A stretch of 64,000 bases of DNA from Pantoea phytobeneficialis. GTDB lineage: Bacteria; Pseudomonadota; Gammaproteobacteria; Enterobacterales; Enterobacteriaceae. A program made the translations under genes and the position numbers. The stretch spans positions 1,741,616 to 1,805,615 of the forward strand of contig NZ_CP024636.1 in assembly GCF_009728735.1 (NCBI RefSeq), given 5' to 3'. Under the pieces are notes generated by a model, which worked only from the letters and a program-made list of their open reading frames with translations, was not told the origin of the DNA and ran no database searches. This document shows, one piece after another, positions 42,988 to 62,564 of the stretch (positions within the stretch are counted from its first letter, which is position 1; the number at the start of each line of letters is the position of its first letter).

Positions 42988-43007
42988 TTAATTAATCAGT
43001 TATTTAA
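42988..43007. promoter_or_regulatory. TetR-type operator A
   Basis: TTAATTAATCAGTTATTTAA, 19 of 20 identical to the consensus seen at 47190. About 107 bp upstream of the binding-protein gene. Confidence 0.7.
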
Positions 43008-43113: not shown

Positions 43114-44001
43114 ATGAGAATGAAAAGTCTGGTTGTTGCTGCATCGCTGTTGGTTTCTGCACTGACGCAATTTTCCACGCAGGCCGCCGATGCGCCACTC
43201 AAAATGCATGCCTCCCTGCATGCGCAGTTACCCGAAAAAATCCGTAGCAGCAAAACCCTCAATCTGGTCACTGATGCTCACTACCCGCCGTGCGAATCCT
43301 TCGCGGAAGACAATAAAACCATGGTCGGCTTTGAGCCGGACCTGTGGGACGCGATCGGCCAGGTGCTGGGTATCAAAGTCAAACCGGTTTCGATCGATTT
43401 CGCCGGGCTGATACCGGGCGTAAAAAGCGGTCGTTATGACGTGGCAATGGAGTGTATCTCCGACAGCGCCGAACGTGAAAAGCAGGTGTCGTTTGTTAAC
43501 TACGCCTACGCCACCAGCGAGGTGTATACGCTGGCGACCGAAAAATCCATCACCAACGATCCGCTGACCCTGTGCGGCCTGAAAGTGGGCGTGCAAACCG
43601 GTACCGATTTCGAAAAAGCCATCAGCGAGATCTACACCCCGAACTGCACCAAAAACGGCAAACCGGCGATCGAACAGGTGACGCTGCCGTCGGCTGATGC
43701 GGTCCTGCTCGGTCTCTATTCGGGCCGGGTGGATTTTGTGTTGAACGATGCCGCCTCGGTGGATGACATCAAGCAAAAAGCCCCGCATCCCATTCGCACC
43801 GTGCAGATGCCACTGATGCCGAAATACTACCTCGGTATTGTGGTGGCGAAAGAGAACACCCAACTGGCGGAGGTGCTGCTGAAGGCGCTTAACGTGCTGC
43901 ATGAAACCGGCACCTACGACAAGATCATGGAGAAGTGGGATCTGGAGGCGATGAAGCTGGATAAACCCGGCATCAACCTCACCAGCACACAGCCATTATG
44001 A
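43114..44001 (+). CDS. Amino-acid-type ABC transporter substrate-binding protein
   Basis: 295 residues, family 3 solute-binding protein. Signal peptide 1-24 (ending FSTQAA). Mature region LNLVTDAHYPPCESFAEDNKTMVGFEPDLWDAIGQVLG shows the family pattern, with DVAMECISDSAEREKQVSF and a pair of Cys in LCGLKVG...NCTKNG. First gene of the cluster, overlapping the FAD oxidoreductase by 4 bp. Ligand probably a polar amino-acid derivative. Confidence 0.9.
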   Translation: MRMKSLVVAASLLVSALTQFSTQAADAPLKMHASLHAQLPEKIRSSKTLNLVTDAHYPPCESFAEDNKTMVGFEPDLWDAIGQVLGIKVKPVSIDFAGLIPGVKSGRYDVAMECISDSAEREKQVSFVNYAYATSEVYTLATEKSITNDPLTLCGLKVGVQTGTDFEKAISEIYTPNCTKNGKPAIEQVTLPSADAVLLGLYSGRVDFVLNDAASVDDIKQKAPHPIRTVQMPLMPKYYLGIVVAKENTQLAEVLLKALNVLHETGTYDKIMEKWDLEAMKLDKPGINLTSTQPL

Positions 44002-45632
44002 GTGGGGGTCGCCAGTGTGATGTGCTGGTGATCGGTTCCGGTGGTGCGGCGCTAAGCGCCGCACTGCGGGCGGCGGTGGGCGGTTTGTCGGTACTGGTGC
44101 TGGAAAAAAGCGCCTGGTTGGGCGGCACCACAGCGATGTCTGGCGGGGCCACCTGGGTGCCAGCCAACCATCACGCCCTGGCCGCCGGCCTGGCCGATTC
44201 ATCACAAGAGGCGCTCGATTATCTGCGTGCCAGTGCGCCTGAAGGTTGGCAGGCGAGCGAGGACACGCTCTGGCAGGCGCTGGCGCAGCAAGCTCCGTTG
44301 ATGCTGGCGTTTGTCGAGCAGCACAGCGCATTGCGTTTCGCCCTGACGCCAGAGGGCGATCCACTGTGGCCGCTGCCGGGAGCCAAACAGCAGGGGCGGA
44401 TGCTGGCACCCATGCCGTTGCAACCGCAACGTCCGTGGCGCTTACGTCCCACGCCGTTACCGCGCCTGTTTTCCTACCACGAACTGCTGACGAGTGACCT
44501 CTGGCATCAGCCGATACGGACGTATCTGCGCGCGTTGCCGCGTCTGCTCCGGCGACAGTGGCGTGGGGAACTGACCAAAGGCGCGGCGCTGGTGGCCGGG
44601 TTGCTTGATGGCTGTCAGGCGGCGGGCTGCGAGTTTATCACTGAGGCAGCGGTGCAGGGCTTACTGATGCGCGGTAGCCATCAGGTCACGGGCGTGCGTT
44701 ACCGGCATCAGGGCGAGGAACGGGAGATTGAGGCGCGTTGTGGCGTAGTGATCGCCAGCGGCGGTTTCGAGTGGGATGCGCAGCAACGGCAGCAGCATTT
44801 CCCAGGTCCGTATGATTTTATCGCCAGCCCCCGCGATAACAGCGGCGATGGGCAGCGTATGGCGGAAAGCGCAGGTGCGCAGTTGGCGCATATGGATCAG
44901 GCCAATATCGGGGGCGGTATACCCGCCGCGCCAGGCCAGCCGTGGAGCGGGTTGTCTGTTTTCTTCCATTACGAACCCAACGCCATTCTGGTCGATCGCC
45001 ACGGTCAGCGTTTCACCAATGAATTTGTTTTTAACCTCGGTGCGGCGCTGGATGCGCGTGATGCGCAGGGGTTGCCGCGCCATCTGCCGGTCTGGCTGAT
45101 CAGCGACGCTCGTTTGCTACGCCGGGCACCGCTGCTGCGTTACTACCGCTGGCGTACACCGGGTTGGCTGCGGCAGGCCGCGACGCTGACGCAACTGGCG
45201 CAACAACTGGCGTTGCCTGCGGGTGCACTGGAGGCCAGCGTGGCGCGGTTTAACCACAGTTGCGCCCGGGGCATTGATGAAGATTTTTCCCGTCATCTGA
45301 GTGCTGCGCATGGCAAAGCTGACCGGCGCTTGCAGGGGGGATTAGCGGCGATCTGCCATGCCCCGTTTATCGCCATACCGTTCAACCGCACCTTCCTTGC
45401 CACCAAAGGCGGGCCGCGTACCGATGCCAGCGGTAATGTGCTGCATCGCGATGGTCGGCCACTGGCGGGCTTGTATTGTGCCGGGGCGGCGATGGCTAAT
45501 CCGATCGGCAGCAAAGCGGTCAGCGCAGGCACCACGCTCGGGCCCAACCTGACCTGGGGCTATATCTGCGGTTCGTCGCTGCTGGCACGCCGTCAGGCAT
45601 TAACCGAGGAGGCAAGATTATGCACAGCGTAA
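43998..45632 (+). CDS. FAD-dependent oxidoreductase (fumarate reductase / ketosteroid dehydrogenase-like)
   Basis: 544 residues, FAD_binding_2 family: dinucleotide motif CDVLVIGSGGAALSAALRAAVGGLSVLVLEK, GGTTAMSGGATWVP, and C-terminal KGGPRTDASGNVLHRDGRPLAGLYCAGAAMANPIG. It has the layout of 3-ketosteroid delta-1-dehydrogenase-type flavoproteins; the real substrate is unknown. Coupled to the binding-protein gene and overlapping the next SDR gene by 13 bp. Confidence 0.85.
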   Translation: MSGGRQCDVLVIGSGGAALSAALRAAVGGLSVLVLEKSAWLGGTTAMSGGATWVPANHHALAAGLADSSQEALDYLRASAPEGWQASEDTLWQALAQQAPLMLAFVEQHSALRFALTPEGDPLWPLPGAKQQGRMLAPMPLQPQRPWRLRPTPLPRLFSYHELLTSDLWHQPIRTYLRALPRLLRRQWRGELTKGAALVAGLLDGCQAAGCEFITEAAVQGLLMRGSHQVTGVRYRHQGEEREIEARCGVVIASGGFEWDAQQRQQHFPGPYDFIASPRDNSGDGQRMAESAGAQLAHMDQANIGGGIPAAPGQPWSGLSVFFHYEPNAILVDRHGQRFTNEFVFNLGAALDARDAQGLPRHLPVWLISDARLLRRAPLLRYYRWRTPGWLRQAATLTQLAQQLALPAGALEASVARFNHSCARGIDEDFSRHLSAAHGKADRRLQGGLAAICHAPFIAIPFNRTFLATKGGPRTDASGNVLHRDGRPLAGLYCAGAAMANPIGSKAVSAGTTLGPNLTWGYICGSSLLARRQALTEEARLCTA

Positions 45633-46381
45633 AAACCGCGCTGATTACCGGCGGTTCACGCGGTGTCGGCCTGTGTATTGCCCGCGAACTGGCGCGGCAG
45701 GGCTATGCCATCGCGCTGCTGGTGCGCAGCGATGTCGAGGCGGCGCAACACGCGGTGGACAAACTGACGGCGCAGGGCGCGCGGGCGGCTTTCTGGCGGG
45801 TCGATATCACCGATCGCCCGGCGGTGCAGCAGGTTCTCGACGAGGTGGTCAACGTGCTTGGCGCACCGAGTCTGCTGGTCAATAACGCCGGATCAACTGC
45901 GGCGGCTCCGTTGCTGGAACTGCGCGATGAACAGTGGCAGCAGGTGCTGAATACCCAGCTAACCGGCACCTTTGTGATGAGTGTCGAAACGGTGCGGCGC
46001 ATGGCACCCGGTGGAGTGATTATCAATATCGCCGGTGCGTCTGCCCATCGTTGCTACCCCAATGCGGGTGCCTTTGGTCCGTCGAAGGCGGGCGTGGTGA
46101 ATCTGACGGCGCAAATGTCGATTGAATGGGCACCTCGCGGTATCCGCGTGTGCGGCATCAGTCCGGGACCGATTCGTGACCCGGATAGTCACTGGGCTAC
46201 CCAGGAGCCACTGCTGGCGCAGGAGGTGGCGCGCTTGCCGCTGCAACGTCCGGTCAGCAGTGATGAGGTGGCGCGCAGCGTGGCATTTCTGGCCACCACG
46301 GCCTCTTTCACCGGCCAGATGCTGATCCTCGACAGCGGTGGCCTGAATACCTGGTACATGACCGAACAGGAGGCGAGATGA
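45620..46381 (+). CDS. SDR-family protein lacking the catalytic tyrosine
   Basis: 253 residues, SDR fold with TGGSRGVG (10-17), NNAG (88-91) and S141. The YxxxK motif reads F152-GPS-K156, so the proton-donating Tyr is Phe (codon ttt at 46073). Catalysis may be altered or lost, or a nearby Tyr (Y146) may substitute. It overlaps the ATPase gene by 4 bp. Confidence 0.85.
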
Positions 46382-47160
46382 GCAAAACGCTGATGGTGGA
46401 TGCGCAGCAGGTCACCAAATCGTTTCACGGCGTGGAGATCCTCAAAGGGGTGGATCTCAGCGTTGAACAAGGCGAGGTGGTGTGTCTGATTGGCCCCTCC
46501 GGCTCGGGAAAATCCACCTTCCTGCGCTGTATCAATCACCTGGAAAAGATTGACGGCGGTGAGCTGTGGGTCAATGGCGGTATGGTCGGCTACCGATTGC
46601 AGGGGGAAAAGTTGTACGAACTGAAGGAGGCTGAGGTGGCGCGTAACCGCGTCAATATTGGCATGGTGTTTCAGCGCTTTAATCTGTTCGGCCATATGAC
46701 GGCGCTGGAAAACGTGATGGAAGCGCCGATGACGGTAAAAAAAGTGCCGCGCGCCCAGGCGATGGCGGAGGCCAAAGCGCTGCTGGATCGCGTCGGGCTC
46801 AGCCATCGTTACCATTCGCGTCCGGCGGCGCTGTCGGGTGGTCAGCAGCAGCGGGTGGCGATTGCACGGGCGATGGCGATGAAGCCGTCGCTGATGCTGT
46901 TTGATGAACCCACCAGCGCGCTCGATCCTGAGCTGGTGGGGGAAGTGCTGGCGGTGATGCGCGATCTGGCGCGTGACGGTATGACGATGGTGATTGTCAC
47001 CCATGAGATGGGTTTTGCGCGTGATGTCGCCAATCGTGTCGCGTTTATGGACAACGGCGCAATCATTGAAGTGGCGGAATCTAAACACTTTTTTTCCGCA
47101 CCACGCCATCCCCGTACCCGAGATTTTCTCGCCCGAGTGCAGGCAGTGAGCACCGAATGA
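46378..47160 (+). CDS. Amino-acid-type ABC transporter ATP-binding protein
   Basis: 260 residues, GlnQ/HisP family. Walker [11 protein letters not shown]-loop VFQRFNLF, signature LSGGQQQRV, Walker [16 protein letters not shown]-loop VTHEM. With the binding protein (43114) and permease (47228) it completes one importer whose genes are interleaved with enzymes. Confidence 0.95.
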
Positions 47161-47189: not shown

Positions 47190-47209
47190 TTAATTAATCA
47201 GTTAATTAA
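47190..47209. promoter_or_regulatory. TetR-type operator B (best copy)
   Basis: TTAATTAATCAGTTAATTAA, 18 bp upstream of the permease start. Inverted halves TTAATTAA around TCAG. An internal operator suggests a second promoter for the downstream enzymes. Confidence 0.75.
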
Positions 47210-47227: not shown

Positions 47228-48118
47228 ATGAAGAGAACGCTGATGACGGATAAAACCCTGACTTCCCCGCTGAATGCCACGCGCACACCAGCGGATCATG
47301 GCCGCCATGTGGTGGCACAGCGCTATCCCGGTCGCTGGATCTCCGCACTGGTGCTGGCGGTGCTGCTGGCGCTGGTAGCGCATTCGATGATCACCAACCC
47401 TAATTTCGCCTGGGCGACGGTGGGTAAATACCTGTTCTCACCCACCATCCTGCTCGGTCTGTGGACCACCTTCTGGCTGACGCTGGTGATCATGGTGCTG
47501 GCGATTGTACTCAGCGTGCTGCTGGCGGTGATGCGCCTCTCCAGTAACCCGCTGCTGGTGGGTTTCAGCCGCGGCTGGATTTGGTTCTTTCGCGGCACGC
47601 CGGTGCTGGTGCAGCTGATTTTCTGGTACAACCTCGCGGCGCTCTATCCGCAGGTCAGCCTGGGGATCCCCGGCCTGTTTACCCTGTGGAGCGGGAGCAC
47701 CAACGATTTGATCACTCCGCTGGCCGCAGCGATTCTCGGCCTTGGACTGAATGAGTCGGCCTATATGGCGGAGATCATCCGTGCCGGGATCTCCTCGGTG
47801 GATGATGGCCAGCAGGAGGCCGCCCGGGCGCTGGGTATGACACGCGGCCAGTATCTGAAGCGGGTGATCCTGCCGCAGGCCATCCCGTTCATCATACCAC
47901 CCACCGGCAACCAGGTGATTGGCATGTTGAAAACCACCTCGTTGGTGAGCGTGATTTCGCTCTCGGATTTGCTCTACTCGGCGCAGGCGATCTACTCACG
48001 CACATACGAAAACATCCCGCTGCTGATTGTTGCCTGTATCTGGTATCTCGCCGCCACCACCGTGCTCAGTCTGGTGCAGGCGCGTGTGGAACATCACTAT
48101 CGCTGGACAAGGGGTTAA
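47228..48118 (+). CDS. Amino-acid-type ABC transporter permease
   Basis: 296 residues. A hydrophilic N-terminal tail of about 35 residues is followed by HisM/GlnP-type helices and the EAA loop LNESAYMAEIIRAGISSVDDGQQEAARALG. The only permease in the cluster, so it probably forms a homodimer. ATG 47228 is used; ATG 47243 is possible. The stop overlaps the monooxygenase start. Confidence 0.92.
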   Translation: MKRTLMTDKTLTSPLNATRTPADHGRHVVAQRYPGRWISALVLAVLLALVAHSMITNPNFAWATVGKYLFSPTILLGLWTTFWLTLVIMVLAIVLSVLLAVMRLSSNPLLVGFSRGWIWFFRGTPVLVQLIFWYNLAALYPQVSLGIPGLFTLWSGSTNDLITPLAAAILGLGLNESAYMAEIIRAGISSVDDGQQEAARALGMTRGQYLKRVILPQAIPFIIPPTGNQVIGMLKTTSLVSVISLSDLLYSAQAIYSRTYENIPLLIVACIWYLAATTVLSLVQARVEHHYRWTRG

Positions 48119-49188
48119 TGATGCAACTCGGTCTGTTCAACCTGATGTCGTATAAAGACAACCCGCGCGGTGTACAGGGGGTGATTGAGGATATGCGCAG
48201 CATGGTGCTGCTGGCGGAGGAGATCGGCTTCGATACCGCGTGGTTTGCCGAGCATCACTTCACCAACTACTCGCTCAGCGTATCGCCGCTGATGCTGGTG
48301 GCACATATGGCCGGTTATGCGCGGCGTATCCGCTTGGGTACGGCGGTGGTGGTATTGCCGTTGTACCAGCCGATGCGTATTGCGCAGGAGATTGCGCTGG
48401 TCGATCGCCTGACGGAAGGGCGGCTGGTGCTGGGTATAGGCAGCGGTTATCAGGCGTGGGAATTTGACCGCTATGGACTGGATGTAGAAACCCGTGGTCA
48501 GCAACTACTGGCGCACTGGCAGTTTATCAGCGATGCCCTGACCCAGGGCTATACCCACTCGCCAGACCGTTTTGGTCAGCCGCTGCGTACCGATTTTCTG
48601 CTCGACACGTTGCAGAAACCCTTACCGCCGCTGTACCTCACCTCATCCAATCCGCAACTGATTGCGCAGTTTCAGCGCTGGCAGGCGACGCCGTTTTTTA
48701 CTGCGGGTTATCGCGGCACTCACAAATTGCAGCAGATGGTGGCCGATGCGCGTCTCGGCTGGCAGCAGGCGGGCCTCGACGCGGCGATGCCGGTGGCGGT
48801 GCAGCAATATATCCACGTTTGTGACAACCGCCAGCAGGCCCATGCCGCAGCGGAACGCGCGCTGTTTGTCGCGCGCATGATCGCGGCGTTGCGCGAGAAC
48901 ACCAGCGTCAGCGAGCAGGCGTTTATCCACGCGCCAGCGTTAGCAGATGAACCTTCGCTGGAGACGGTGAGCAATAACCTGATGATTGGCGATGCGGAAA
49001 CCGTCGCTGAGCGCATGCTGGCGGAGATCCGCACCCTCCGTCCCAGCCACTACAACTGTTTCTTCCAGTTTGGCGATATGCCGATTGCTGATGCGCGTCG
49101 TTCGCTGACGCTGTTTGGCGAGCGGGTCGTGCCGCTGCTGGAAAAAGAGCTTGGTCCATTGACCTTTCGTACCGCCAGAGGAGAGTGA
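48118..49188 (+). CDS. Luciferase-like (LLM class) flavin-dependent monooxygenase
   Basis: 356 residues, TIM-barrel bacterial-luciferase family: MQLGLFNLMSY..., DTAWFAEHHFTNYSLSVSPLMLVAHMAG, TAVVVLPLYQPMRIAQEIALVDRLTEGRLVLGIGSGYQ. Such enzymes use FMNH2 and O2; the flavin reductase must be elsewhere. Translationally coupled to the permease. Substrate unknown. Confidence 0.9.
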   Translation: MMQLGLFNLMSYKDNPRGVQGVIEDMRSMVLLAEEIGFDTAWFAEHHFTNYSLSVSPLMLVAHMAGYARRIRLGTAVVVLPLYQPMRIAQEIALVDRLTEGRLVLGIGSGYQAWEFDRYGLDVETRGQQLLAHWQFISDALTQGYTHSPDRFGQPLRTDFLLDTLQKPLPPLYLTSSNPQLIAQFQRWQATPFFTAGYRGTHKLQQMVADARLGWQQAGLDAAMPVAVQQYIHVCDNRQQAHAAAERALFVARMIAALRENTSVSEQAFIHAPALADEPSLETVSNNLMIGDAETVAERMLAEIRTLRPSHYNCFFQFGDMPIADARRSLTLFGERVVPLLEKELGPLTFRTARGE

Positions 49189-49189
49189 A

Positions 49190-50353
49190 ATGTATCGCGA
49201 GAAGATTGATGTGGTGTTTGATGACGGTGACAGCATTCTGCAACGGATGCTGGAGCAGCAACGCCATGATGCCAGCCGTGCAGAAACCCTGCCGCCAGAA
49301 GCCTATAACAGCGACAGTTTTTTCCGTCTCGAAGAAGACAAAGTGTTCCGCCAGGACTGGTTATTTGTCGGCCATGAGTCGCAAATTGCTAACCTGAATG
49401 ATTTCTTCACGCTGGATGTGGTGGGCGAGCCGTTACTGATTTTGCGGAACGACGCTGGCATTGCGGTGTTCTCCAACGTTTGTCTGCATCGCTGGGCGCC
49501 GATTGCGCACGGCAGCGGCAACAGCCGTTCATTTATCTGTCCATTCCACAACTGGACCTACAACACCCACGGCAAGCTGAGTGGCGCGCCATCCATGAAT
49601 CAGGCGCAGGACTTTGACCGTCAGCAGTGCAGCCTGCCGAAGATCCGCCATGAGGTGGTGTTCGGCATGATCTTTGTCACCTTCAACGCCGATGCCCAGC
49701 CGCTGGCACCCCGGCTGGCACCGCTCACCGAACGTTTTCAACGCTACCACGTCGCCGATCTGGTAACCGCTTACACGCTGGATTACGACTGTCCGTACAA
49801 CTGGAAAATGGCGATCGAAACGTTTATGGAGTGCTACCACCATGCGGCGGTGCATCGCACCACGCTGGAGGATAGCTTTCCCGGTCGACTCAGTTCGATC
49901 ATTGATGAAGGCCCGGGCTGGACCATCTGTCATCAGCCGCTGCGGAAAAACGGTGAACTGAGCGAGATCCTGACCGCCGGTCTGGAACCGTTCAGTGGCC
50001 TGAGCGACGAGCAGATGCGCTTCAGTGAATTGCTGCTGCTGTTTCCCAACTGCCTGATCTCACTGAATCCGGATCGTCTCTCCATCAGTGCCATTCTGCC
50101 GGTGTCGCCACATGCTACTCGCTGGCACCGCGTGGTGCTGGTATCGCAGGCGTCTGCGGCGCGGGAGGATTTTCCTCAGACCGCCGCGACGATGAAGCAG
50201 GGCAGCCTGGCGATTATCGATGAAGACCAGTGGATCAACGCCGAGCAGCAGCGCGGTAGCCGTTCCCGTCTCGCACGTCCGGGACGCCTGAGCCACCTCG
50301 AAACCACCGTCTGGCATCTGGCCAATTACCTGAAAATCCGCATGGCGGAGTGA
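49190..50353 (+). CDS. Rieske-type oxygenase, large (alpha) subunit
   Basis: 387 residues. Rieske [2Fe-2S] ligands C98-x-H100 and C117-xx-H120 (VCLHRW...FICPFHNWTY). Mononuclear iron region WKMAIETFMECYHHAAVH with H217 and H222. The ECYH pattern recalls N-demethylating or ammonium-cleaving oxygenases (GbcA, CntA, stachydrine demethylase) more than aromatic dioxygenases. No ferredoxin/reductase partner is in the cluster. It starts 1 bp after the monooxygenase stop. Confidence 0.88.
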   Translation: MYREKIDVVFDDGDSILQRMLEQQRHDASRAETLPPEAYNSDSFFRLEEDKVFRQDWLFVGHESQIANLNDFFTLDVVGEPLLILRNDAGIAVFSNVCLHRWAPIAHGSGNSRSFICPFHNWTYNTHGKLSGAPSMNQAQDFDRQQCSLPKIRHEVVFGMIFVTFNADAQPLAPRLAPLTERFQRYHVADLVTAYTLDYDCPYNWKMAIETFMECYHHAAVHRTTLEDSFPGRLSSIIDEGPGWTICHQPLRKNGELSEILTAGLEPFSGLSDEQMRFSELLLLFPNCLISLNPDRLSISAILPVSPHATRWHRVVLVSQASAAREDFPQTAATMKQGSLAIIDEDQWINAEQQRGSRSRLARPGRLSHLETTVWHLANYLKIRMAE

Positions 50354-50363
50354 GGAGCAGGCA

Positions 50364-51350
50364 ATGCGTTATCTGAAGCTGGGACACTCCGGCCTGGATG
50401 TCTCTGCGCTCTGTCTGGGGACGGTGACCTATGCGCCACCGGCGCGCAGTGGCCGGAGCTGGACGCTGGATGAAGCCGCCAGCCGCGAACTGATCCGTGC
50501 CGCGCTGGAGCAGGGCATCAACTTTTTCGACAGCGCCAATATCTATGCCAAAGGGGCGAGTGAAGAGATCCTTGGTCGTGCGCTGCGTGATTTCGCCTCC
50601 CGCGATGAAGTGGTGATCACCAGCAAACTGTATAACCCAATGCGCAGTGGACCAAACAGCAAGGGGTTGTCGCGTAAGGCGATTATGCAGGAGTGCGATC
50701 ACAGCCTGCGCCGACTCGGCACCGATTACATCGACTTGTATGAAATCCACCGCTGGGATAATGACACGCCGATTGAAGAGACGCTGGAGGCGCTCAACGA
50801 CCTGGTGAAGGCTGGCAAGGTGCGTTACCTCGGAGCGTCGTCCATGTTCGCATGGCAGTTCAGCAAGGCGCTGCAAATCCAGAAGTACGAACGCTGGAGC
50901 CGTTTTATCGCCATGCAGAACCACCTCAACCTGATCTATCGCGAAGAAGAACGCGAAATGCTGGCGCTGTGTCAGGCGGAAGGGGTCGCGGTGACGCCCT
51001 GGAGCCCACTGGCGCGCGGACGGCTGGCCCGCCCGGTGGAGGCGGCGAAGTCGAGTACGCGTGGTGCCGACGACAGCTATACCGATTTTCTCTATGCCGC
51101 GACTGAGCACGCCGATAGCGCGGTGATCCGCGCGGTGGAGCAGGTAGCGCAGGCGCGTGGCGTGCCGATGGCACAGGTGGCGCTGGCATGGATCTACAGC
51201 CGTCCGGCGGTGGTGGCGGCCGTGATTGGAGCCACCCGTCCCCTGCATTTGAGCGACGCACTGGCGGCGCTGGATCTGACGTTAAGCGCTGACGAAATCG
51301 CCGCGCTCGACGCCCCATATATTCCCCATTCTATTGTTGAACATGACTAA
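50364..51350 (+). CDS. Aldo/keto reductase
   Basis: 328 residues, AKR fold. Tetrad residues in FFDSANIYAKGASEE (D, Y), VVITSKLYNP (K) and LYEIHRWD (H). Resembles YajO-type reductases. Probably reduces an aldehyde or ketone intermediate of the pathway. Confidence 0.9.
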   Translation: MRYLKLGHSGLDVSALCLGTVTYAPPARSGRSWTLDEAASRELIRAALEQGINFFDSANIYAKGASEEILGRALRDFASRDEVVITSKLYNPMRSGPNSKGLSRKAIMQECDHSLRRLGTDYIDLYEIHRWDNDTPIEETLEALNDLVKAGKVRYLGASSMFAWQFSKALQIQKYERWSRFIAMQNHLNLIYREEEREMLALCQAEGVAVTPWSPLARGRLARPVEAAKSSTRGADDSYTDFLYAATEHADSAVIRAVEQVAQARGVPMAQVALAWIYSRPAVVAAVIGATRPLHLSDALAALDLTLSADEIAALDAPYIPHSIVEHD

Positions 51351-51362
51351 GGCAGGGCACCA

Positions 51363-52730
51363 ATGAAAAGCGCAGCACAGATCGCCGAGATCAAACAGGC
51401 CCTGATGGCTAAAGGGGTGGAGTACTGCATGGGCGCGTACGTGGACATTCACGGTGTCCCCAAGGGTAAAGTGGTGCCGATTGGTCATCTGGATCAGATG
51501 GCACAGGGTTCCGAACGTTACACCGGCTATGCGCTGGACGGTCTGGGTCAGTCGCCGCACGAAGATGAACTGACCTCGGTGCCGGATCTCGACCACATCA
51601 TCCAGTTACCCTGGGAACCGAAGATTGCGTGGATGCCCGCCGATAACCACTTTCAGGGCGAACCCTATGCGCTCAGCACGCGGGTGGCGTTGCAGAACGT
51701 GATTAAACAGGCTAACGCCCTGGGTTTTGGGTTTAACCTCGGCATCGAGTGCGAAATTTATTTGTTGAAGCGGGAACAGGATGGTCGGCTGGTGGTGCCG
51801 GAACCGGATAACAAACTCAACAAGCCCTGCTACGACTTGCAGGGCTTCGTGGACCAGTTTGGCTGGCTGGATGAGGTTTCCTCCACCATCAACGCGCTGG
51901 GCTGGGATCTCTATTCGCTTGACCACGAAGATGGCAACTCGCAATACGAGTTCGACTTCAACTACGCCGATGCGCTGACCACCTGCGATCGTTTTATCTT
52001 CTTCCGCTTTATGGCGAAGCATTACGCCAAACAGCGCGGGCTGATCGCCACCACCATGCCGAAGCCGTTCGCCGATAAAACCGGCACCGGCGCGCACTTC
52101 AATATGTCGCTGTATGACATCAATACCGGTGCCAACGTGTTTAAACGCGACGCCAGCAGCGCGGATGATCCCTGGGGCCTGGGCCTGAGTGATACCGGTT
52201 ATCACTTTATCGGCGGGCTGTTGAAGCATGGCCGTGCGCTGTGCGCTGCCTTTGCCCCGACGGTCAACAGCTACAAACGTCTGGTACGCCAGGGGGCGAT
52301 GAGCTACTTCTCGTGGGCACCGGTGTTTAACTCCTGGGGTTCCAATAACCGCACCAACGCGGTACGCGTCCCGGCCGGTGGTGGCCGTTGTGAATCGCGT
52401 AATGCCGATGGCGCGGTCAATCCCTATCTGGCGGCCACGCTGGCGTTAGCTGCCGGGCTGGAAGGTATTCGCGAGAAGATCGATCCGCGTCAGCCGAATG
52501 AAGACAATCTGTATGCCATCAGCGAAGCGGAGCGCCGCGCGCGTGGCATCGATTTTCTGCCGCAAAACTTGCTGGAAGCGGTGGAAGCCTTTGATGCCGA
52601 CCCGTTTGTCGCTGCGACGCTGGGTGAAGCGCTGAAAAAAGAGTTTATTCACTACAAGTTGCAGGAGTGGAACAGCTATCACCTGCATGTCAGCCAGTGG
52701 GAAATTGATCGCTACAGCACCATTTTTTAA
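51363..52730 (+). CDS. Glutamine-synthetase-like ligase (GlnT / gamma-glutamylamide synthetase type)
   Basis: 455 residues. The N-terminus [26 protein letters not shown] and catalytic domain [46 protein letters not shown] and [10 protein letters not shown] are closer to gamma-glutamylmethylamide synthetase / GlnT than to GlnA. Such enzymes ligate glutamate to an amine, so the pathway may release a small amine. Last gene of the forward cluster. Confidence 0.85.
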
Positions 52731-52757: not shown

Positions 52758-52817
52758 GCGCGATGAATCGCGCCGCTACACATCATGAACATCCCGTAGC
52801 GGCGCGATTTATCGCGC
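52758..52817. repeat. Dispersed palindromic repeat, inverted pair
   Basis: Arm CGCGCCGCTAC (52758-52779) and arm GTAGCGGCGCGATTTATCGC (52796-52817) between the ligase and TetR genes. The arms point outward, unlike the pair at 32719. Confidence 0.8.
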
Positions 52818-52833
52818 GGATTTAACCGGCAAC

Positions 52834-53454
52834 TCAGGCATCGAGCTTTTCAAACACAAAATTGCGCATCACGTTGATGGCCTGTTTGTATTTGAAATTG
52901 GGGAACATCACATTACGGAACAGCACGCCATCAAGGTAGGTGGAGATCAGCATCGCCATATCTCCCGGGTTCACCTCACGGAACAACCCGCTGGCGATCC
53001 CCTCTTTGATGGTGTTCTTCAGAATCACCGATTCCTTTTCGTAGAACTTTTTAATCGCTTTATCAATGCTGGCGATGCGGCCATTGGTGCTGGAGTAATC
53101 CAGACTGATTTTGGCCAGTTTTTGCAACAGATGGAACTGGAGGATGTGGATCTCAATCCACAGAAAAATCAGGTCGCGCGGCCCGTTGGCGCTGGCTTTG
53201 ATGTCGTCAAACTGCACAAAGGCACGCTCCACCGCGGACTCAATCACCTTGATAAACAGGTCTTCTTTTGAGCCGAAGTAGTAATAAATCAGCGCCGAGT
53301 TCAGCCCGGTAGCGGTGGCGATATCTTTAATTCGTACCGACGAATAGTTCTGGGTGGCGAACAAATCAAAGGCTGAGGATTGCAACAACTCGGCGACGTC
53401 GCGCTGGGTTTTACGCAGTTTCTTGCCAGGTTCAGCGGCTGGAGTTTCCTTCAT
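52834..53454 (-). CDS. TetR-family transcriptional regulator
   Basis: 206 residues. N-terminal HTH in SSVRIKDIATATGLNSALIYYYFGSKEDLF (about 39-68), then a helical ligand-binding domain. ATG 53454 follows AAGGATG. Divergent from the hydrolase gene with operator C between them, so it probably regulates itself and the whole cluster through the TTAATTAATCAGTTAATTAA sites. Confidence 0.9.
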   Translation of the reverse strand: MKETPAAEPGKKLRKTQRDVAELLQSSAFDLFATQNYSSVRIKDIATATGLNSALIYYYFGSKEDLFIKVIESAVERAFVQFDDIKASANGPRDLIFLWIEIHILQFHLLQKLAKISLDYSSTNGRIASIDKAIKKFYEKESVILKNTIKEGIASGLFREVNPGDMAMLISTYLDGVLFRNVMFPNFKYKQAINVMRNFVFEKLDA

Positions 53455-53468
53455 GGCGACATCCTTAT

Positions 53469-53488
53469 GAAATTAACTAATTAATTAA
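53469..53488. promoter_or_regulatory. TetR-type operator C
   Basis: GAAATTAACTAATTAATTAA, 17 of 20 identical to the consensus read in reverse. It lies between the divergent TetR (14 bp) and hydrolase (28 bp) starts. Confidence 0.65.
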
Positions 53489-53516
53489 CTTTACCATATT
53501 GAGTCAGGAGAACGGC

Positions 53517-54518
53517 ATGGGTTTATGCGCTTTTTATACGCCCGGCGATCTGCCGCTGGCAAGCGGAGAAACGTTGCGTGAGACGGCCATTGGTTATCAG
53601 ACCTTTGGTCAGCTTAACGCTGCACGCGACAATGCAGTGGTGATCTTTAGCTACTACAGCGGCACCCATGAACGTTATTTACCGTTGATTGGCGCAGGAA
53701 AAACGCTCGACCCGACGCACTGGTTTATTGTGTTGGTGAATAAACTCGGTAATGGCGTATCCAGCTCGCCTTCTAACTCACGTTTGCAGCCGGGAGCGGC
53801 TTTTCCATCGGTGACGCTGGTCGATAACCTGCGGGCGCAGGAGCGGCTGCTGTTTGACCATCTCGCCATTAACCGCATCGCGCTGGCGTATGGCTGGTCG
53901 ATGGGGGCGATGCAGGCCTGGCATCTGGCGGTGGCGCGACCACAACAGGTGCGGGCGCTGCTGGCGGTGTGCGGTTCGGCGCGCTGTTGGCCGAATAATC
54001 AGGTGTTTCTTGAGGGGGTTCGGGCCGCGCTGCGTTGCGATGCGCAGTTTTCCGACGGCCACTATGTCGAGCCTCCGTTACGCGGGCTGGCGGTATTTGG
54101 TCGCGTCTATGCCGGCTGGGCCTATTCTGCTGCGTTTTTTCGTGAAGCGCGTTGGCGCGATCTCGGCTTCGACTCGCTGGAGGCGCTGCTGGTGGACTGG
54201 GAGCGGGATCATCAGGCGCTGGATGCCAATGATCTGTTGTGCGCCCTGCACAGTTGGTATCACGCCGATGTTGGTGTGCTGGCAAACGGAGACTGGCGTG
54301 CGGCGCTGGCGCGTATCCGCGCGCGTTGCATCGTGATGCCGTGCGACAGCGATCGTTATTTTACGGTGGAAGAGGCGGCACTGGAGGTAGCGGAATTAGG
54401 TCAGGGTGAGTTACGCACTCTCGTTTCACCTTACGGACATTGTGCCGGCGCGCCCGCGCGCTTTGCGGCCGCGTCGGCACAGATTGACAGCGCCATGCAG
54501 GCGTTGCTCAACCCTTAA
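53517..54518 (+). CDS. Alpha/beta-fold hydrolase, homoserine O-acetyltransferase (MetX)-like
   Basis: 333 residues. Nucleophile elbow GWSMGAMQ, an Asp in MPCDSDRYF and a His in SPYGHCAG complete the triad. The N-terminus LRETAIGYQTFGQLNAARDNAVVIF is MetX-like, but the elbow differs from the GGSMGGMQ of true MetX. ATG 53517 follows AGGAG. Overlaps the convergent DUF3830 gene by 4 bp. Confidence 0.82.
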   Translation: MGLCAFYTPGDLPLASGETLRETAIGYQTFGQLNAARDNAVVIFSYYSGTHERYLPLIGAGKTLDPTHWFIVLVNKLGNGVSSSPSNSRLQPGAAFPSVTLVDNLRAQERLLFDHLAINRIALAYGWSMGAMQAWHLAVARPQQVRALLAVCGSARCWPNNQVFLEGVRAALRCDAQFSDGHYVEPPLRGLAVFGRVYAGWAYSAAFFREARWRDLGFDSLEALLVDWERDHQALDANDLLCALHSWYHADVGVLANGDWRAALARIRARCIVMPCDSDRYFTVEEAALEVAELGQGELRTLVSPYGHCAGAPARFAAASAQIDSAMQALLNP

Positions 54519-54940
54519 TCAATGATGCTCAGCTCGACAGTACGTCCCTGATCAAACCAGGTTTCCAGGCCGGTGACGCGCAGTTCGAGTTTGCCTTCAA
54601 TCACCTGACCGATATAGGAAATCGGCAGCGGCTCGTCAGCGGTATCGTCGCCGTACACCACACACATCTGCTGGCGCGGGCTGTAGTAACATACCGCGCC
54701 GGTCACTTCGCCGTACTGTTCACGGCGCAGTTTGCCAACATCCTGCGTCAGATATTTGTTTTCCCACGGGGCGACGATCGGCAGGGTGAAAAACACCATG
54801 TCGCCAATCAACTTGCCGTGTTGCAGCACGCTTTTCAGCGGCAGCTTTTCACGCAACACTTTCGCCAGGTTGGGGACTTTGTCTTCCCACACCTCAATCA
54901 CACAAATCTTCTTATCGGCAACATGCATAGCCAGTTTCAT
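54515..54940 (-). CDS. DUF3830 cyclophilin-like protein (possible opine-synthase-type domain)
   Basis: 141 residues. The pattern LPLKSVLQHGKLIGDMVFFTLP..APWENKYL, YGEVTGAVCYYSPRQQMCVVYGD and YIGQVIEGKLEL fits the DUF3830 cyclophilin-like family, related by fold to the N-terminal domain of cucumopine/mikimopine synthase. ATG 54940 follows GGGAGAGA. Cotranscribed with the upstream helical protein, 17 bp away. Function is inferred only. Confidence 0.7.
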   Translation of the reverse strand: MKLAMHVADKKICVIEVWEDKVPNLAKVLREKLPLKSVLQHGKLIGDMVFFTLPIVAPWENKYLTQDVGKLRREQYGEVTGAVCYYSPRQQMCVVYGDDTADEPLPISYIGQVIEGKLELRVTGLETWFDQGRTVELSIID

Positions 54941-54957
54941 GATCTTCTCTCTCCCAA

Positions 54958-55434
54958 TCAGGCGTTGACGCGACGAAAACCGTCCCCGAGACCCCAGGGA
55001 AGAATGAAATCGACCCACATATGCAGGCGGTTGGCCCAGGAGAGGGCGCTGTGCGACAGACGAACCAGGTCGCTCAGGGTTTCACATTCACCCGCCACCT
55101 CGACATAAGTGTGCAGCATTCGGGCCGCATCCGGCAGGCTGACGAAATCAAAGAAGTTAGCTTTGTAACCCATGATCTCTTTGATCAGCAGTTGCAGGGT
55201 TTTTAGATCGGCCTCCGGGTTGTCCTCGCCGACGCGAATCAGCCCCCACAACATCTCATCGGCTAGCGTACGGGTTTCCCCTTCGGCGAAGATGATGGTG
55301 CTGAGGTACTGACCACGGGAACCGGTACCGCGTGGTACTTCACCCTTACCGAGTGCGGCAATTTCTGCCGGTTGTTCAAACCAGATCTTTTCGCGCTGCG
55401 CGTCAAACAGCGCTATCGCTTCATCGACCGTCAT
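54958..55434 (-). CDS. Helical-bundle protein related to the cucumopine synthase C-terminal domain (tentative)
   Basis: 158 residues, all-helical (LADEMLWGLIRV, ADLKTLQLLIKEIMGYKANFFDFVSLPDAARMLHTYVEVA, HSALSWANRLHMWVDFILPWGLGDGF). From memory this matches proteins named cucumopine-synthase-related, the helical bundle that follows the cyclophilin-like domain in that enzyme. Here the two parts are separate genes. ATG 55434 follows CAGGAGA, and two operators lie upstream. Confidence 0.5.
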   Translation of the reverse strand: MTVDEAIALFDAQREKIWFEQPAEIAALGKGEVPRGTGSRGQYLSTIIFAEGETRTLADEMLWGLIRVGEDNPEADLKTLQLLIKEIMGYKANFFDFVSLPDAARMLHTYVEVAGECETLSDLVRLSHSALSWANRLHMWVDFILPWGLGDGFRRVNA

Positions 55435-55478: not shown

Positions 55479-55498
55479 TTAATTAATCAGATAATTAA
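55479..55498. promoter_or_regulatory. TetR-type operator D
   Basis: TTAATTAATCAGATAATTAA, 19 of 20 to the consensus, 44 bp upstream of the helical-protein start. Confidence 0.7.
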
Positions 55499-55530: not shown

Positions 55531-55550
55531 AAAATTAATCAGTTAATTAA
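55531..55550. promoter_or_regulatory. TetR-type operator E
   Basis: AAAATTAATCAGTTAATTAA, 18 of 20 to the consensus, with its start 52 bp (five helical turns) from operator D, so two regulator dimers could bind on one face. Confidence 0.65.
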
Positions 55551-55633
55551 TAGTGGGTTAGGTAAAAAACCGCGCAGGGAGAGGTTTCAGGCGACGTGAG
55601 GCTGTTGTATCGCAGTGCAGATTGCACCATTTC

Positions 55634-55729
55634 GTAGCGGCGCGATTTATCGCGCAATATTTGTGGCTCGTTGCCAACACGCACGATATGACGAGTTTGC
55701 ATAAGTTGTAGCGGTGCGATTTATCGCGC
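55634..55729. repeat. Dispersed palindromic repeat, two direct arms
   Basis: GTAGCGGCGCGATTTATCGC at 55634 and GTAGCGGTGCGATTTATCGC at 55708, same orientation, between the cluster and the fumarase gene. Confidence 0.75.
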
Positions 55730-55786
55730 CATTCGGCGGGGTTTATTCAGGGGGAAAGGGCGCGCATCACTGCGCACCCCATAAGG

Positions 55787-57430
55787 TTACTTCACGCAGG
55801 CCGCACACTGGTTATGGATCTGCTGGAAGAAGTCGTTACCTTTGTCATCCACCAGGATAAACGCCGGGAAGTTTTCCACTTCAATCTTCCAGATCGCTTC
55901 CATACCCAGTTCTGCGTACTCCACGCATTCGAGGCTCTTGATACTCTGCTGCGCCAGTACCGCTGCCGGGCCACCGATACTGCCGAGATAGAAGCCGCCG
56001 TGTTTATGGCAGGCATCTGTCACCTGCTGGCTGCGGTTGCCTTTCGCCAGCATCACCATGCTGCCGCCGTTGGCCTGCAACAGGTCAACGTAGGAATCCA
56101 TACGGCCTGCGGTGGTTGGGCCGAGTGAACCTGACGCATAACCTTCTGGCGTCTTGGCCGGTCCTGCGTAATACACCGGATGGTCTTTGATGTACTGCGG
56201 CAGACCTTCACCGTTATCAATACGTTCTTTCAACTTGGCGTGGGCAATGTCACGCGCCACGATAATGGTGCCGTTCAGCGACAGGCGGGTCGATACCGGG
56301 TAGGAAGAAAGTTGCGCCAGAATCTCGGTCATCGGACGGTTGAGGTCCACGTTGACCACTTCGCCTTCACCCTGCTGACGCAGTTCTTCCGGGATAAAGC
56401 GGCCTGGATTATGCTCCAGTTGCTCGATCCAGATGCCTTCACGGTTAATCTTCGCCTTGATATTGCGGTCAGCCGAGCAGGAAACCCCCATACCCACCGG
56501 GCAGGACGCGCCATGACGTGGCAGACGCACCACACGGATATCGTGCGCGAAGTATTTACCGCCAAACTGCGCACCGAGGCCCAGTTTCTGCGACGCTTCC
56601 AGCAACTCCTGCTCCAACTGCACATCACGGAACGCCTGACCGTGCTCATTACCTTCAGTCGGCAGCGAATCGTAGTAGTGGGTGGAGGCCAGTTTCACGG
56701 TTTTCAGCGTGCTTTCCGCCGAGGTGCCACCGATAACAAACGCGATATGGTAAGGCGGGCAGGCGGCGGTGCCGAGCGACATCATTTTATCGATCAGGTA
56801 GTTCTTCAGTTTCGCCGGAGTGATCAGCGCTTTGGTTTCCTGATAGAGATAGGTTTTGTTGGCGGAGCCGCCCCCTTTGGCGATACACAGGAATTTGTAC
56901 TCGTCACCGTCAACGCTGTAAAGGTCAATCTGTGCCGGCAGGTTAGTACCGGTATTCACCTCTTTGTACATATCCAGCGCGGCGTTCTGTGAGTAGCGCA
57001 GGTTATCTTCGATAAAGGTGTTGTACACCCCCTGGGACAACGCCGCTTCGTCGCCGCCACCGGTCCACACACGCTGGCCTTTCTTACCCATGATGATGGC
57101 GGTGCCGGTGTCCTGACAGGTCGGCAGCACGCCTTTGGCTGCGATTTCGGAGTTACGCAGGAACTGCAAGGCGACATATTTGTCGTTCTGGCTGGCTTCA
57201 TCATCGGCCAGAATCGCGGCCACCTGTTGCTGATGGGCAGCGCGCAGCATAAATGAGGCATCGTGGAACGCCTGCTGCGCCAGCAGGGTCAGCGCTTGCG
57301 GATCAACTTTTAACACTTCTTCGCCTGCGAATTTCTCCACGGAGACGTAATCGCGGCTGAGCAGGTAGTACTCAGTATCATCTTTGGCGAGAGGAAAGGG
57401 ATCTTGATAGTAGAAGGGTTTGTTCGACAT
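55787..57430 (-). CDS. Class I fumarate hydratase (FumA/FumB type)
   Basis: 547 residues (E. coli FumA/FumB 548), iron-sulfur fumarase interconverting malate and fumarate. Near-identical in recall to FumA, with cluster cysteines in LPTCQDTG and [15 protein letters not shown], and [16 protein letters not shown]. It lies downstream of the dicarboxylate carrier and next to fumarate reductase, which favours the anaerobic (FumB-like) role. FumA and FumB cannot be told apart from sequence alone. Confidence 0.93.
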
Positions 57431-57512
57431 GTTGGCTCACTCAGTTATGTGTCGCTCGTCTGGTACAGAGAAGACAGGCGACATCATTAGCGATTCGTTA
57501 TAGGTTTTTTCT

Positions 57513-57544
57513 CTCGCCAGCCCAGCTCAGGGCTGACTGGCGAG
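57513..57544. promoter_or_regulatory. Nested hairpin between carrier and fumarase genes
   Basis: CTCGCCAG...CTGGCGAG enclosing CAGCCC...GGGCTG, without a T tract on either strand. A likely RNA-processing or stability structure in the 172-bp gap of the carrier-fumarase operon. Confidence 0.5.
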
Positions 57545-57602
57545 TATCATAGCATTTTAACATTCTTTCGCGGCTGCGATTTTTAACATCGAAGCAACAT
57601 CA

Positions 57603-59114
57603 TCAGAACATCAGCACCATCCACGGATAGGCAATCAGCATCAGCAGCACCAGGAACAGCGCACCGAAGATGGTGCCCAGACGCCAGTAGTCTTTGGTTG
57701 GCAGATAGCCGCTACCGTAATAAATCGGGCTGGGGCCAGTACCGTACGGGGTGATGATACCCATCACACCCAGTGAGGTCGCCAGCATCAGACAGAACAC
57801 CGGCATATTGATGCCTGGGATAGCAGCCGCAATGGTCAGCATGGCTGGCAGCAGGGCAGTGGTGTGTGCGGTGGTGCTGGCAAACAGGTAGTGCAGTACA
57901 TAGAAAGCCACCAGTAAGACCACGGCAGAGACTTGTGGATCATACCCTTGCAGCAGTTGCCCGCCTTCTTTACCCAACCAGGCAATGAAGCCGACTTTCG
58001 CCAGACCATCGGCGAGGGCAACCAGGGTGGCGAACCAGGCGAAGGTGTTCCACGCAGCTTTGTTGCTGGTGATATCGTTCCAGTTCAGTACGCCGGTCCA
58101 CAGCATCAGCACAATCACCAGCAGCGCGGCCATTGCCGGTTCAATCCAGGCTGTGGCAAAGATCCACATCAGCAGCGCAGAAATCACGAACACCAGCAGC
58201 AGGATTTCATTGCGCGACAGTTTGCCCAGTTTTGCCAGCTCGGCTGTTGCCCAGCGCGGCACTTCATCGTTCAGTTTCACTTCCGGTGGATAGAGCCAGT
58301 AGGCCAGCAGCGGCATGGTGAGAATCAACAGCACACCCAGCGGCAGGAAGGCAAGGAACCACATGCCCCAGGAGATATCAAAACCTACCACGCTTTTTAT
58401 CAGCGCCAGCGCCAGCAAGTTGGGAGCCAGTGCAGACAGGAACATAGAACTGGTGATACAGGTGGCGGTGATGGCAACCCACATCAGATAAGAACCAATT
58501 TTGCGCGCACTCGGGTCGTTAGGTTTTGAACCGTACAGCGGCGGCAGGTTGGCGATAATCGGATAGATGGTGCCGCCACTGCGTGCGGTGTTGGACGGTG
58601 TGAACGGTGCCAGCAACAGGTCTGCGAAGGTGATGGCGTAACCCAGCGTCAGGCTGCGACGGCCGAGATATTTCACCAGAATCAGCGCCAGGCGGCGACC
58701 GAACTGGGTTTTATCGTAACCGGCGGCAAACATAAAGGCACCGAAGATCAGCCACACGGTGGAGTTACCGAAGCCGCTGACCGCCCATTTGAAGGACTGG
58801 CCTGCCATTTTAAACTTCGGATCCGCCAGCTCGGCCGGGCTAAACAGCAGGTACTGACTGAACAGCGCGATCACCACCACGCCGGTCAGGCCGATCACCG
58901 CGCCAGGCAGAGGTTCGAAGATCAGGCCGACAATCACGCCAACAAAGATTGCGAAGAAGTGCCACGCATAAGGTTCGAGTCCTTCCGGTGTGGGCACCAG
59001 TAACAACAGCACAGCAACAACCACCGGCAGGCACAGCATCAGCAGCCGGTTTTTATTCCCCGGCGCGGCAGGCGGCGCTTTTAGGGGTTCATTCTGGATA
59101 GTTTGTGTTTTCAT
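57603..59114 (-). CDS. DASS-family dicarboxylate/tartrate/citrate carrier (TtdT/CitT type)
   Basis: 503 residues, about 12 membrane segments, with DASS features AFTPSNTARSGGTIYPI and STTAHTTALLPAML, and the C-terminal GVMGIITPYGTGPSPIYYGSGY seen in TtdT and CitT. These antiport C4-dicarboxylates, tartrate or citrate against succinate. ATG 59114 is chosen; a TTG at 59129 adds five residues. First gene of an operon with fumarase. Confidence 0.9.
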   Translation of the reverse strand: MKTQTIQNEPLKAPPAAPGNKNRLLMLCLPVVVAVLLLLVPTPEGLEPYAWHFFAIFVGVIVGLIFEPLPGAVIGLTGVVVIALFSQYLLFSPAELADPKFKMAGQSFKWAVSGFGNSTVWLIFGAFMFAAGYDKTQFGRRLALILVKYLGRRSLTLGYAITFADLLLAPFTPSNTARSGGTIYPIIANLPPLYGSKPNDPSARKIGSYLMWVAITATCITSSMFLSALAPNLLALALIKSVVGFDISWGMWFLAFLPLGVLLILTMPLLAYWLYPPEVKLNDEVPRWATAELAKLGKLSRNEILLLVFVISALLMWIFATAWIEPAMAALLVIVLMLWTGVLNWNDITSNKAAWNTFAWFATLVALADGLAKVGFIAWLGKEGGQLLQGYDPQVSAVVLLVAFYVLHYLFASTTAHTTALLPAMLTIAAAIPGINMPVFCLMLATSLGVMGIITPYGTGPSPIYYGSGYLPTKDYWRLGTIFGALFLVLLMLIAYPWMVLMF

Positions 59115-59295
59115 AGTTTTGGTCTGCAAGTTATGGAGAATGCGATTAACGTTCCGGGAAAACAGGTGTTACTTTGCTCTACTCAGATGATACTTTTTTA
59201 ATCTGCCGTTACGTCTTTAATGCTTCTTTAATTGCAATGTTGAAGAGAGAGGATTGCGTAATGTAAATATGATGCGATTTATTAAAAACTCCATT

Positions 59296-59309
59296 TTGAT
59301 CTGGATCAA
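59296..59309. promoter_or_regulatory. FNR box TTGAT-CTGG-ATCAA
   Basis: Perfect 5+5 match to the FNR consensus. Toward the carrier gene, a CATATT -10-like element at 59266-59271 would put the start near 59261 and the box near -41.5, the class II activator position. Confidence 0.8.
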
Positions 59310-59382
59310 AAAATCGATTCAGTATTAAATCCTTTTTGTATTTGACATATATTCTTACCCTTACTTAATTCTTTTCTGCTGG

Positions 59383-59422
59383 TGACAAGACGCCATAAAG
59401 CTCAAGGCGGAAGGCGTTGTCA
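59383..59422. promoter_or_regulatory. Bulged hairpin in the control region
   Basis: TGACAA-(GA)-CGCC ... GGCG-TTGTCA, ten paired bases with a two-base bulge and an 18-bp loop. Confidence 0.4.
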
Positions 59423-59700
59423 TCTGGGGTGTGTCTGATAACGTCATGATTTATCATAAATTAATTTCTATGTAAATGAAAAAATTGATTTTTGACAACG
59501 TTTCGCTAACATTTTAAGTGGCGAATATTCAGTCTTAGTGTTTATTTCCAGAATAATTTAAAAGTTAAAAAACTAAATTTATTAATTATGTAACTAAAGA
59601 AATTGGTATATTGTTTACATGAAATCGGACCTCTTAAATAAATTTGAAATAACTGCGTCTGCGACAGAATTCGAAACTTTTAAATTTTGGAGTTGTTATC

Positions 59701-62478: not shown

Positions 62479-62490
62479 ATCACACCATCC

Positions 62491-62547
62491 GTAGCGGCGC
62501 GATTTATCGCGCTCTTTTAAGAACCGCGCGATAAATCGTGCCGCTAC
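62491..62547. repeat. Dispersed palindromic repeat, inverted pair
   Basis: GTAGCGGCGCGATTTATCGC and its inverse ending GTGCCGCTAC form a hairpin between the reductase and apbE. It could lower apbE expression relative to the reductase. Confidence 0.8.
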
Positions 62548-62564
62548 AACTGTAAGAGGCGATA

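Follow-up and report, generated by a model that had tools for sequence, protein, structure and literature searches.

A split synthase-like gene pair

The DNA analysed here, referred to as the window, is a stretch of 64,000 nucleotides from the genome of Pantoea phytobeneficialis (contig NZ_CP024636.1, positions 1,741,616 to 1,805,615). The subject of this report is a pair of adjacent minus-strand genes at 54515-55434 – HEL, for a helical-bundle protein, followed after 17 bases by CYC, for a cyclophilin-like protein – which together form a candidate split enzyme related to cucumopine synthase. Both genes had been picked out in an earlier reading of the letters alone (the sequence-only reading), and both are present as it claimed. 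That reading also placed them beside an amino-acid ATP-binding cassette (ABC) importer and oxidative enzymes, and this arrangement is confirmed by family matches of the substrate-binding protein (SBP), permease, ATPase and oxidative genes (Table 1).

In profile searches HEL matches the Pfam family PF18631 (Cucumopine_C) at 157 bits, against a cut-off of 27, and it is the only PF18631 gene in the whole genome. CYC scores 23.8 bits with PF12903 (DUF3830), below the cut-off of 26, and matches two further cyclophilin-like families, likewise weakly and below their cut-offs; despite this sub-threshold score, several CYC relatives are labelled 'DUF3830 family protein' in public records. An NCBIfam scan at an E-value of 1 gave zero matches for either protein. 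The end of CYC abuts a MetX-like gene on the opposite strand.

Predicted folds and conserved residues

AlphaFold models of each subunit alone (AF2) were compared with known structures using Foldseek and VIA. Each matches one domain of KslB and McbB, two bacterial Pictet-Spenglerases; the predicted models thus have the KslB/McbB fold, a cyclophilin-like domain with a helical bundle. Profile and structural similarity both bear out the proposed kinship of HEL with cucumopine synthase. The CYC model (pLDDT 92.7) has a clear cyclophilin-like fold and corresponds to the other domain of KslB and McbB, as had been proposed; the description of CYC as a DUF3830 cyclophilin-like protein therefore stands for the fold and falls short of the Pfam cut-off for the family.

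CYC residue E103 occupies the position of McbB Glu97, as judged from a two-step residue alignment in which McbB is numbered with an offset of 21 that was deduced from the range of the structure entry; it is present in 44/44 pairs and in 59/60 rows of the alignment (A6). HEL H138 (window 55021-55023) is common to the aligned split pairs and a probable mikimopine synthase. The existence of fused relatives in both domain orders suggests that the two domains act as one unit, and HEL and CYC presumably form a physical complex.

Distribution of the pair

HEL was found in 5/99 relatives, all five among 60 genomes of the window's genus, and CYC adjoins it in 5/5. Relatives of the cluster's Rieske protein (at least 92%) are present in the same five genomes and in one more of the same species (6/60), this sixth genome lying outside the HEL search. 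A search of 394 genomes of the order found the Rieske protein (E 1e-60) and full-length HEL in the window's own genome only, with partial HEL matches at E 4e-4 in two others. A PF18631 census of 398 sampled Pseudomonadota also returned the window's own genome alone, so that no wider statistics are possible.

One scan with a HEL alignment gave 36 named genomic loci (one of them, L006, near-identical to the window), for which gene starts and locus types depend on a simple purpose-made gene caller. CYC adjoins HEL at all 36, an adjacency far beyond chance. There are 41 pairs, because five actinobacterial loci carry two in tandem, and the order is HEL-CYC in 40 of them; importer genes are present at 35 loci. 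Twenty loci are of the window type, 11 are linked to histidine-utilisation (hut) genes, and five are of other kinds. The split-pair clade spans Enterobacterales, Pseudomonas, Rhodobacterales, Hyphomicrobiales and Actinobacteria. In Sodalis sp. dw_96 the pair and the oxidative cluster do not share a contig, importer genes accompany each, and no pair was seen in the stretches read around the oxidative cluster; the two modules are therefore separable.

Linkage to histidine-utilisation genes

Hut genes lie within 10 kb of the pair at the 11 hut-linked loci, against a chance expectation, by our own estimate, of about 0.2 of 36 (about 29 kb of 5 Mb each). At every one of the 11, at least one protein (hutI, hutU or hutH) exceeds its NCBIfam cut-off. 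At five loci hutH starts 86-112 bases past the pair on the same strand; at the remaining six, 0.8 to 6.5 kb separate the pair from whichever of hutH, hutU, hutI and hutF is closest.

In a joint tree the hut-linked loci fall inside window-type groups: Consotaella (L027) groups with Rhodobacterales loci (support 0.95), and Kaistia, a Hyphomicrobiales metagenome-assembled genome (MAG) and Devosia fall within a clade of 11 (support 0.97). Mixed clades of hut-linked and window-type loci are also seen in the HEL-only and CYC-only trees. The Bauldia locus (L031) combines a window-type FAD gene, whose protein is 55% identical, with hutH, hutI and hutF; among the hut-linked genomes this is the single close match to the window's FAD protein. 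We considered whether hut-linked genomes hold the oxidative set at a second locus and rejected this; Rieske relatives there reach 33% identity at most, and so the two modules are not simply divided over two loci.

The five actinobacterial loci with tandem HEL-CYC pairs (L036-L040) carry them just ahead of hutH. The second pairs have Lys for Arg at HEL 136 (5/5) and the first have Gln at HEL 142 (4/5), differences from which the tandem pairs may handle different isomers. At three loci (L014, L017 and L018) a dihydroxyacetone-kinase-like gene stands beside a HutC-like regulator, divergent from the importer and pair (the L014 protein alone was scanned). The gene could hint at a carbonyl half that is a triose; found in only 3/36 loci, it was set aside and is kept as a lead. 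The aldolase and kinase genes upstream of HEL in Rouxiella and Serratia (L010-L012), about 230 bases away in L010, are probably independent and were also discarded.

Relatives on plasmids

A protein search of a plasmid collection gave 16 records, of which nine were inspected and eight are annotated (two are the same plasmid); the Nonomuraea record is unannotated. On the mikimopine Ri plasmid pRi1724, a split CYC-HEL pair lies close to an ABC importer and to a 308-amino-acid PF18631 protein, probably the mikimopine synthase. One paper names split mis homologues, riorf22 and riorf23, in the non-T-DNA part of the mikimopine Ri plasmid, and mentions a mis homologue in the fungus Eutypa lata (PMC4242671). 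We take riorf22 and riorf23 to be the pRi1724 pair. Like the window's genes, these are adjacent, belong to the same two families, cyclophilin-like and helical, and lie near an amino-acid ABC importer. They differ in their CYC-HEL order, in a HEL only about 25% identical, and in their surroundings, which include rol genes, the probable mikimopine synthase and, in place of the window's oxidative set, oxoprolinase genes.

Sodalis praecaptivus has a split pair with an RpiR regulator, hutH, importer genes and oxoprolinase genes, and Paraburkholderia has a fused gene with hutH, hutU, hutD and hutI. The Agrobacterium plasmids pAvCG412, pTiAg57 and pTiLBA1190 carry synthase-like genes with hutC and hutF, and with hutH and hutI in two of the three stretches. 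They resemble the window in joining a synthase-like gene to ABC importer genes, and the hut-linked loci in their hut genes, whereas their synthase-like proteins are fused; no Rieske or luciferase-like gene is annotated in these stretches. A cucumopine-catabolic region is referred to on pAtAg67 in another paper (PMC10745273), and the regions of synthase-like and hut genes on the three plasmids are probably regions of this kind. Flanked by importer and hut genes on pAvCG412, from A. vitis (L046:6179-8492), are two fused synthase-like genes that diverge and have their domains in opposite orders; the cyclophilin-like part of the HEL-CYC-order protein matches KslB at E 3e-53.

Cucumopine, a compound of plant tumours, is made by linking an amino acid with a keto acid. 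Cucumopine and mikimopine synthases (Cus/Mis), which are expressed in plant cells, share both domains and the conserved His and Glu positions with the window's pair; they are single fused chains, unlike the pair with its place in a bacterial import regulon. KslB and McbB share the fold of both domains and the Glu at the McbB Glu97 position, and differ from the pair in being fused, biosynthetic and in using L-Trp as a substrate.

The surrounding cluster and its operator-like sites

Features of the cluster are listed in Table 1. The operator-like pattern TTAATTAATCAGWTAATTAA, searched with up to 3 mismatches allowed, has five sites in the window, against a mean of 0.00 over 100 shuffles, and six in the whole genome. 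As a control, the same pattern read backwards has three sites genome-wide, so that weaker matches are not rare by themselves. Two of the sites precede HEL and three lie at other cluster promoters; the earlier claim that the pair is under the cluster's operators is thus right in sequence terms. With sites before the SBP, permease and HEL genes, the importer falls in the same putative regulon as the pair, and the TetR-family regulator probably binds all five sites. The spacing and strand of HEL and CYC point to their cotranscription; a promoter scan gave no minus-strand promoter-like site before HEL.

Table 1. Features of the HEL-CYC cluster in the window
Feature	Coordinates	Strand	Basis
ABC importer substrate-binding protein (SBP)	43114..44001	plus	PF00497 108 bits
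FAD-dependent dehydrogenase, 3-oxosteroid-dehydrogenase-like	43998..45632	plus	PF00890 208.7 bits; NCBIfam below cut-off
Short-chain dehydrogenase (SDR)	45620..46381	plus	PF13561 162.7 bits
ABC importer ATPase, polar amino-acid type	46378..47160	plus	PF00005 119 bits; best NCBIfam TcyN, GlnQ, below cut-offs
ABC importer permease	47228..48118	plus	PF00528 85.8 bits
Luciferase-like flavin monooxygenase	48118..49188	plus	PF00296 160.1 bits
Rieske oxygenase	49190..50353	plus	PF00848 108.4 and PF00355 64.3 bits; best NCBIfam GbcA, below cut-off
Aldo/keto reductase (AKR)	50364..51350	plus	PF00248 249.5 bits
Type III glutamate-ammonia ligase, glutamine-synthetase-like	51363..52730	plus	TIGR03105 630.7 bits, cut-off 469.6
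TetR-family regulator	52834..53454	minus	PF00440 47.3 bits; location
MetX-like alpha/beta hydrolase	53499..54518	plus	NCBIfam PRK07581 361.9 bits, cut-off 332
CYC, cyclophilin-like subunit, 141 aa	54515..54940	minus	DUF3830-related
HEL, helical-bundle subunit, 158 aa	54958..55434	minus	PF18631 Cucumopine_C
Operator-like site upstream of SBP gene	42988..43007	plus	1 mismatch
Operator-like site upstream of importer permease gene	47190..47209	plus	0 mismatches
Operator-like site between divergent TetR and MetX-like genes	53469..53488	minus	3 mismatches
Operator-like site, copy 1, upstream of HEL	55479..55498	plus	0 mismatches
Operator-like site, copy 2, upstream of HEL	55531..55550	plus	2 mismatches

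Proposed function and alternatives

The reading that we favour, and hold to be just likelier true than false, is that HEL and CYC make up an enzyme of two subunits that acts in catabolism, taking apart a histidine-derived Pictet-Spengler adduct after its import. The ABC importer would bring in the adduct, a tetrahydro-imidazopyridine carboxylate of the cucumopine, mikimopine or spinacine type. The pair, as a split enzyme of the bacterial Pictet-Spenglerase (cucumopine synthase) fold, would then open the ring at the former carbonyl carbon, using CYC E103, to yield histidine and an oxo compound. The histidine would pass to the hut pathway, encoded elsewhere in the window's genome and beside the pair in some other bacteria; the other cluster enzymes may trim substrate that carries decorations, or metabolise the half other than histidine, and the TetR protein would derepress the gene set in the presence of substrate. 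The reaction, its direction and its substrate are all putative. An importer in the regulon, hut genes that recur in several parts of the tree, and homologues with importer and hut genes as neighbours on plasmids of opine biology together make adduct cleavage the best single explanation. The sequence-only reading had spoken of making or undoing a Pictet-Spengler-like adduct; such an adduct is still the best reading, and the genomic context favours its undoing.

A number of observations weigh against adduct cleavage with histidine release. Closure of the ring in a Pictet-Spengler reaction is generally held to be favourable, which calls for proof of any enzymatic reversal. The window's cluster is without hut genes (a hutU gene is present elsewhere in the genome), as are the other window-type loci within 10 kb, and the five loci of other kinds lack hut genes and also the complete oxidative set. 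Histidine release alone leaves seven enzymes unexplained (Rieske, luciferase-like, FAD, SDR, AKR, type III glutamine synthetase and MetX-like). A hutU gene is present in 36/37 pair genomes (one copy, in G123, is broken into two matches; the genome with no match is the MAG of L017, whose locus holds hutI and hutF), and it exceeds its cut-off in 35/36 sampled genus genomes, with the pair in only 5/60. Its genome-wide presence was therefore dropped as a link, and the hut argument is one of neighbourhood only. The single-gene HEL and CYC trees disagree in detail, and some mixed clades are poorly supported. McbB His87, to which, as to R72, a role is attributed, is not kept in CYC, which has Q91 there; HEL H138 is absent from the fused hut-linked forms, and McbB and KslB are also without His at that position. 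The identity of HEL is low, at 25% with the pRi1724 subunit and 21% with the probable mikimopine synthase. On the plasmids, the annotation of pTiAg57 divides the synthase-like gene into two pieces and lists no hutH, and the Sinorhizobium medicae split pair has no hut genes in its stretch. Finally, close to the 3' end of HEL and ahead of CYC there are two terminator-like sites on the minus strand (terminator-like sites number four in total, against 1.5 in shuffles).

The absence of hut genes from the window-type cluster counts in favour of an explanation that we judge unlikely, in which the imported compound is degraded but, in window-type clusters, the amine is not histidine or the ring opening is of another kind, with the type III glutamine synthetase capturing the amine as a gamma-glutamyl amide. 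The cluster's Rieske oxygenase and type III glutamate-ammonia ligase form a combination known from amine-degradation pathways, and the separate contigs of Sodalis sp. dw_96, with importer genes on each, are in keeping with it. It has to contend, however, with the closeness of the hut-linked proteins to the window's (HEL 49-75% and CYC 60-78% identity), with a hut-linked importer of the same family (SBP 41-57%, permease 53-61%, ATPase 51-67%), and with the interleaving of the two locus types in the tree.

Less probable still is a forward Pictet-Spenglerase that makes an adduct of histidine or another amino acid, for example for metal binding or signalling, with the importer retrieving the product and the oxidative genes tailoring it. 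The solved relatives of named activity are synthases, and the KslB product is given as the adduct of L-Trp and 2-oxoglutarate (PMC12513458). Rieske, luciferase-like and FAD enzymes do occur in biosynthetic clusters too. Yet the cluster as read has an importer and no exporter, histidine-destroying genes accompany the pair at the hut-linked loci, and the plasmid relatives adjoin importer or hut genes. That HEL and CYC are no enzyme at all, the cyclophilin-like subunit being a folding helper or the pair a ligand sensor, we consider very improbable.

Beyond adduct cleavage in the window itself, we advance a wider proposal as possible and on balance rather doubtful: that the pair is a widespread but rare retro-Pictet-Spenglerase, a two-subunit lyase with its own importer for feeding on an unrecognised natural histidine alkaloid, and that this catabolic split pair came first and was later fused into a T-DNA synthase running the same chemistry forwards, the Agrobacterium opine trick being derived.

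Relation to published systems

Earlier publications already cover both families, the fused enzymes and the Ri-plasmid split pair. As far as the literature searched shows, what is new is the distinct and strongly conserved split-pair clade, its linkage to importer and hut genes, and the window's oxidative regulon. Searches of one open-access library found no description of an enzyme undoing a Pictet-Spengler adduct of histidine, and no paper on DUF3830. One article proposes a retro-Pictet-Spengler step on manzamines in a fungus (PMC7024544).

At least 36 genomes encode this pair, whose proteins are mostly unnamed, and the analysis suggests what they may do. If adduct cleavage is right, the pair would offer a test system for enzymatic retro-Pictet-Spengler chemistry and an origin for cucumopine-type opine synthases. 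It would also point to an unrecognised pool of histidine alkaloids in the surroundings of these bacteria, which, to judge from species names and isolation sources, come from plants, wood, bark beetles and mangroves.

Other features of the window and genome

REP-like repeated palindromic elements around GTAGCGGCGCGATTTATCGCGC lie in intergenic positions at 52760-52815 and 55630-55735. Beside the cluster, at 55787-63530, are genes that by reading are fumarase-like, for a DASS-type transporter, for a 925-amino-acid multidomain flavoprotein and ApbE-like, a set apparently concerned with reduction of fumarate or another acceptor. The window's genome (G000) also has a second urocanate-hydratase-like gene (contig C4:143384-144985, 693 bits), found in one other of 36 sampled genus genomes, which may serve in the breakdown of thiourocanate (from ergothioneine).
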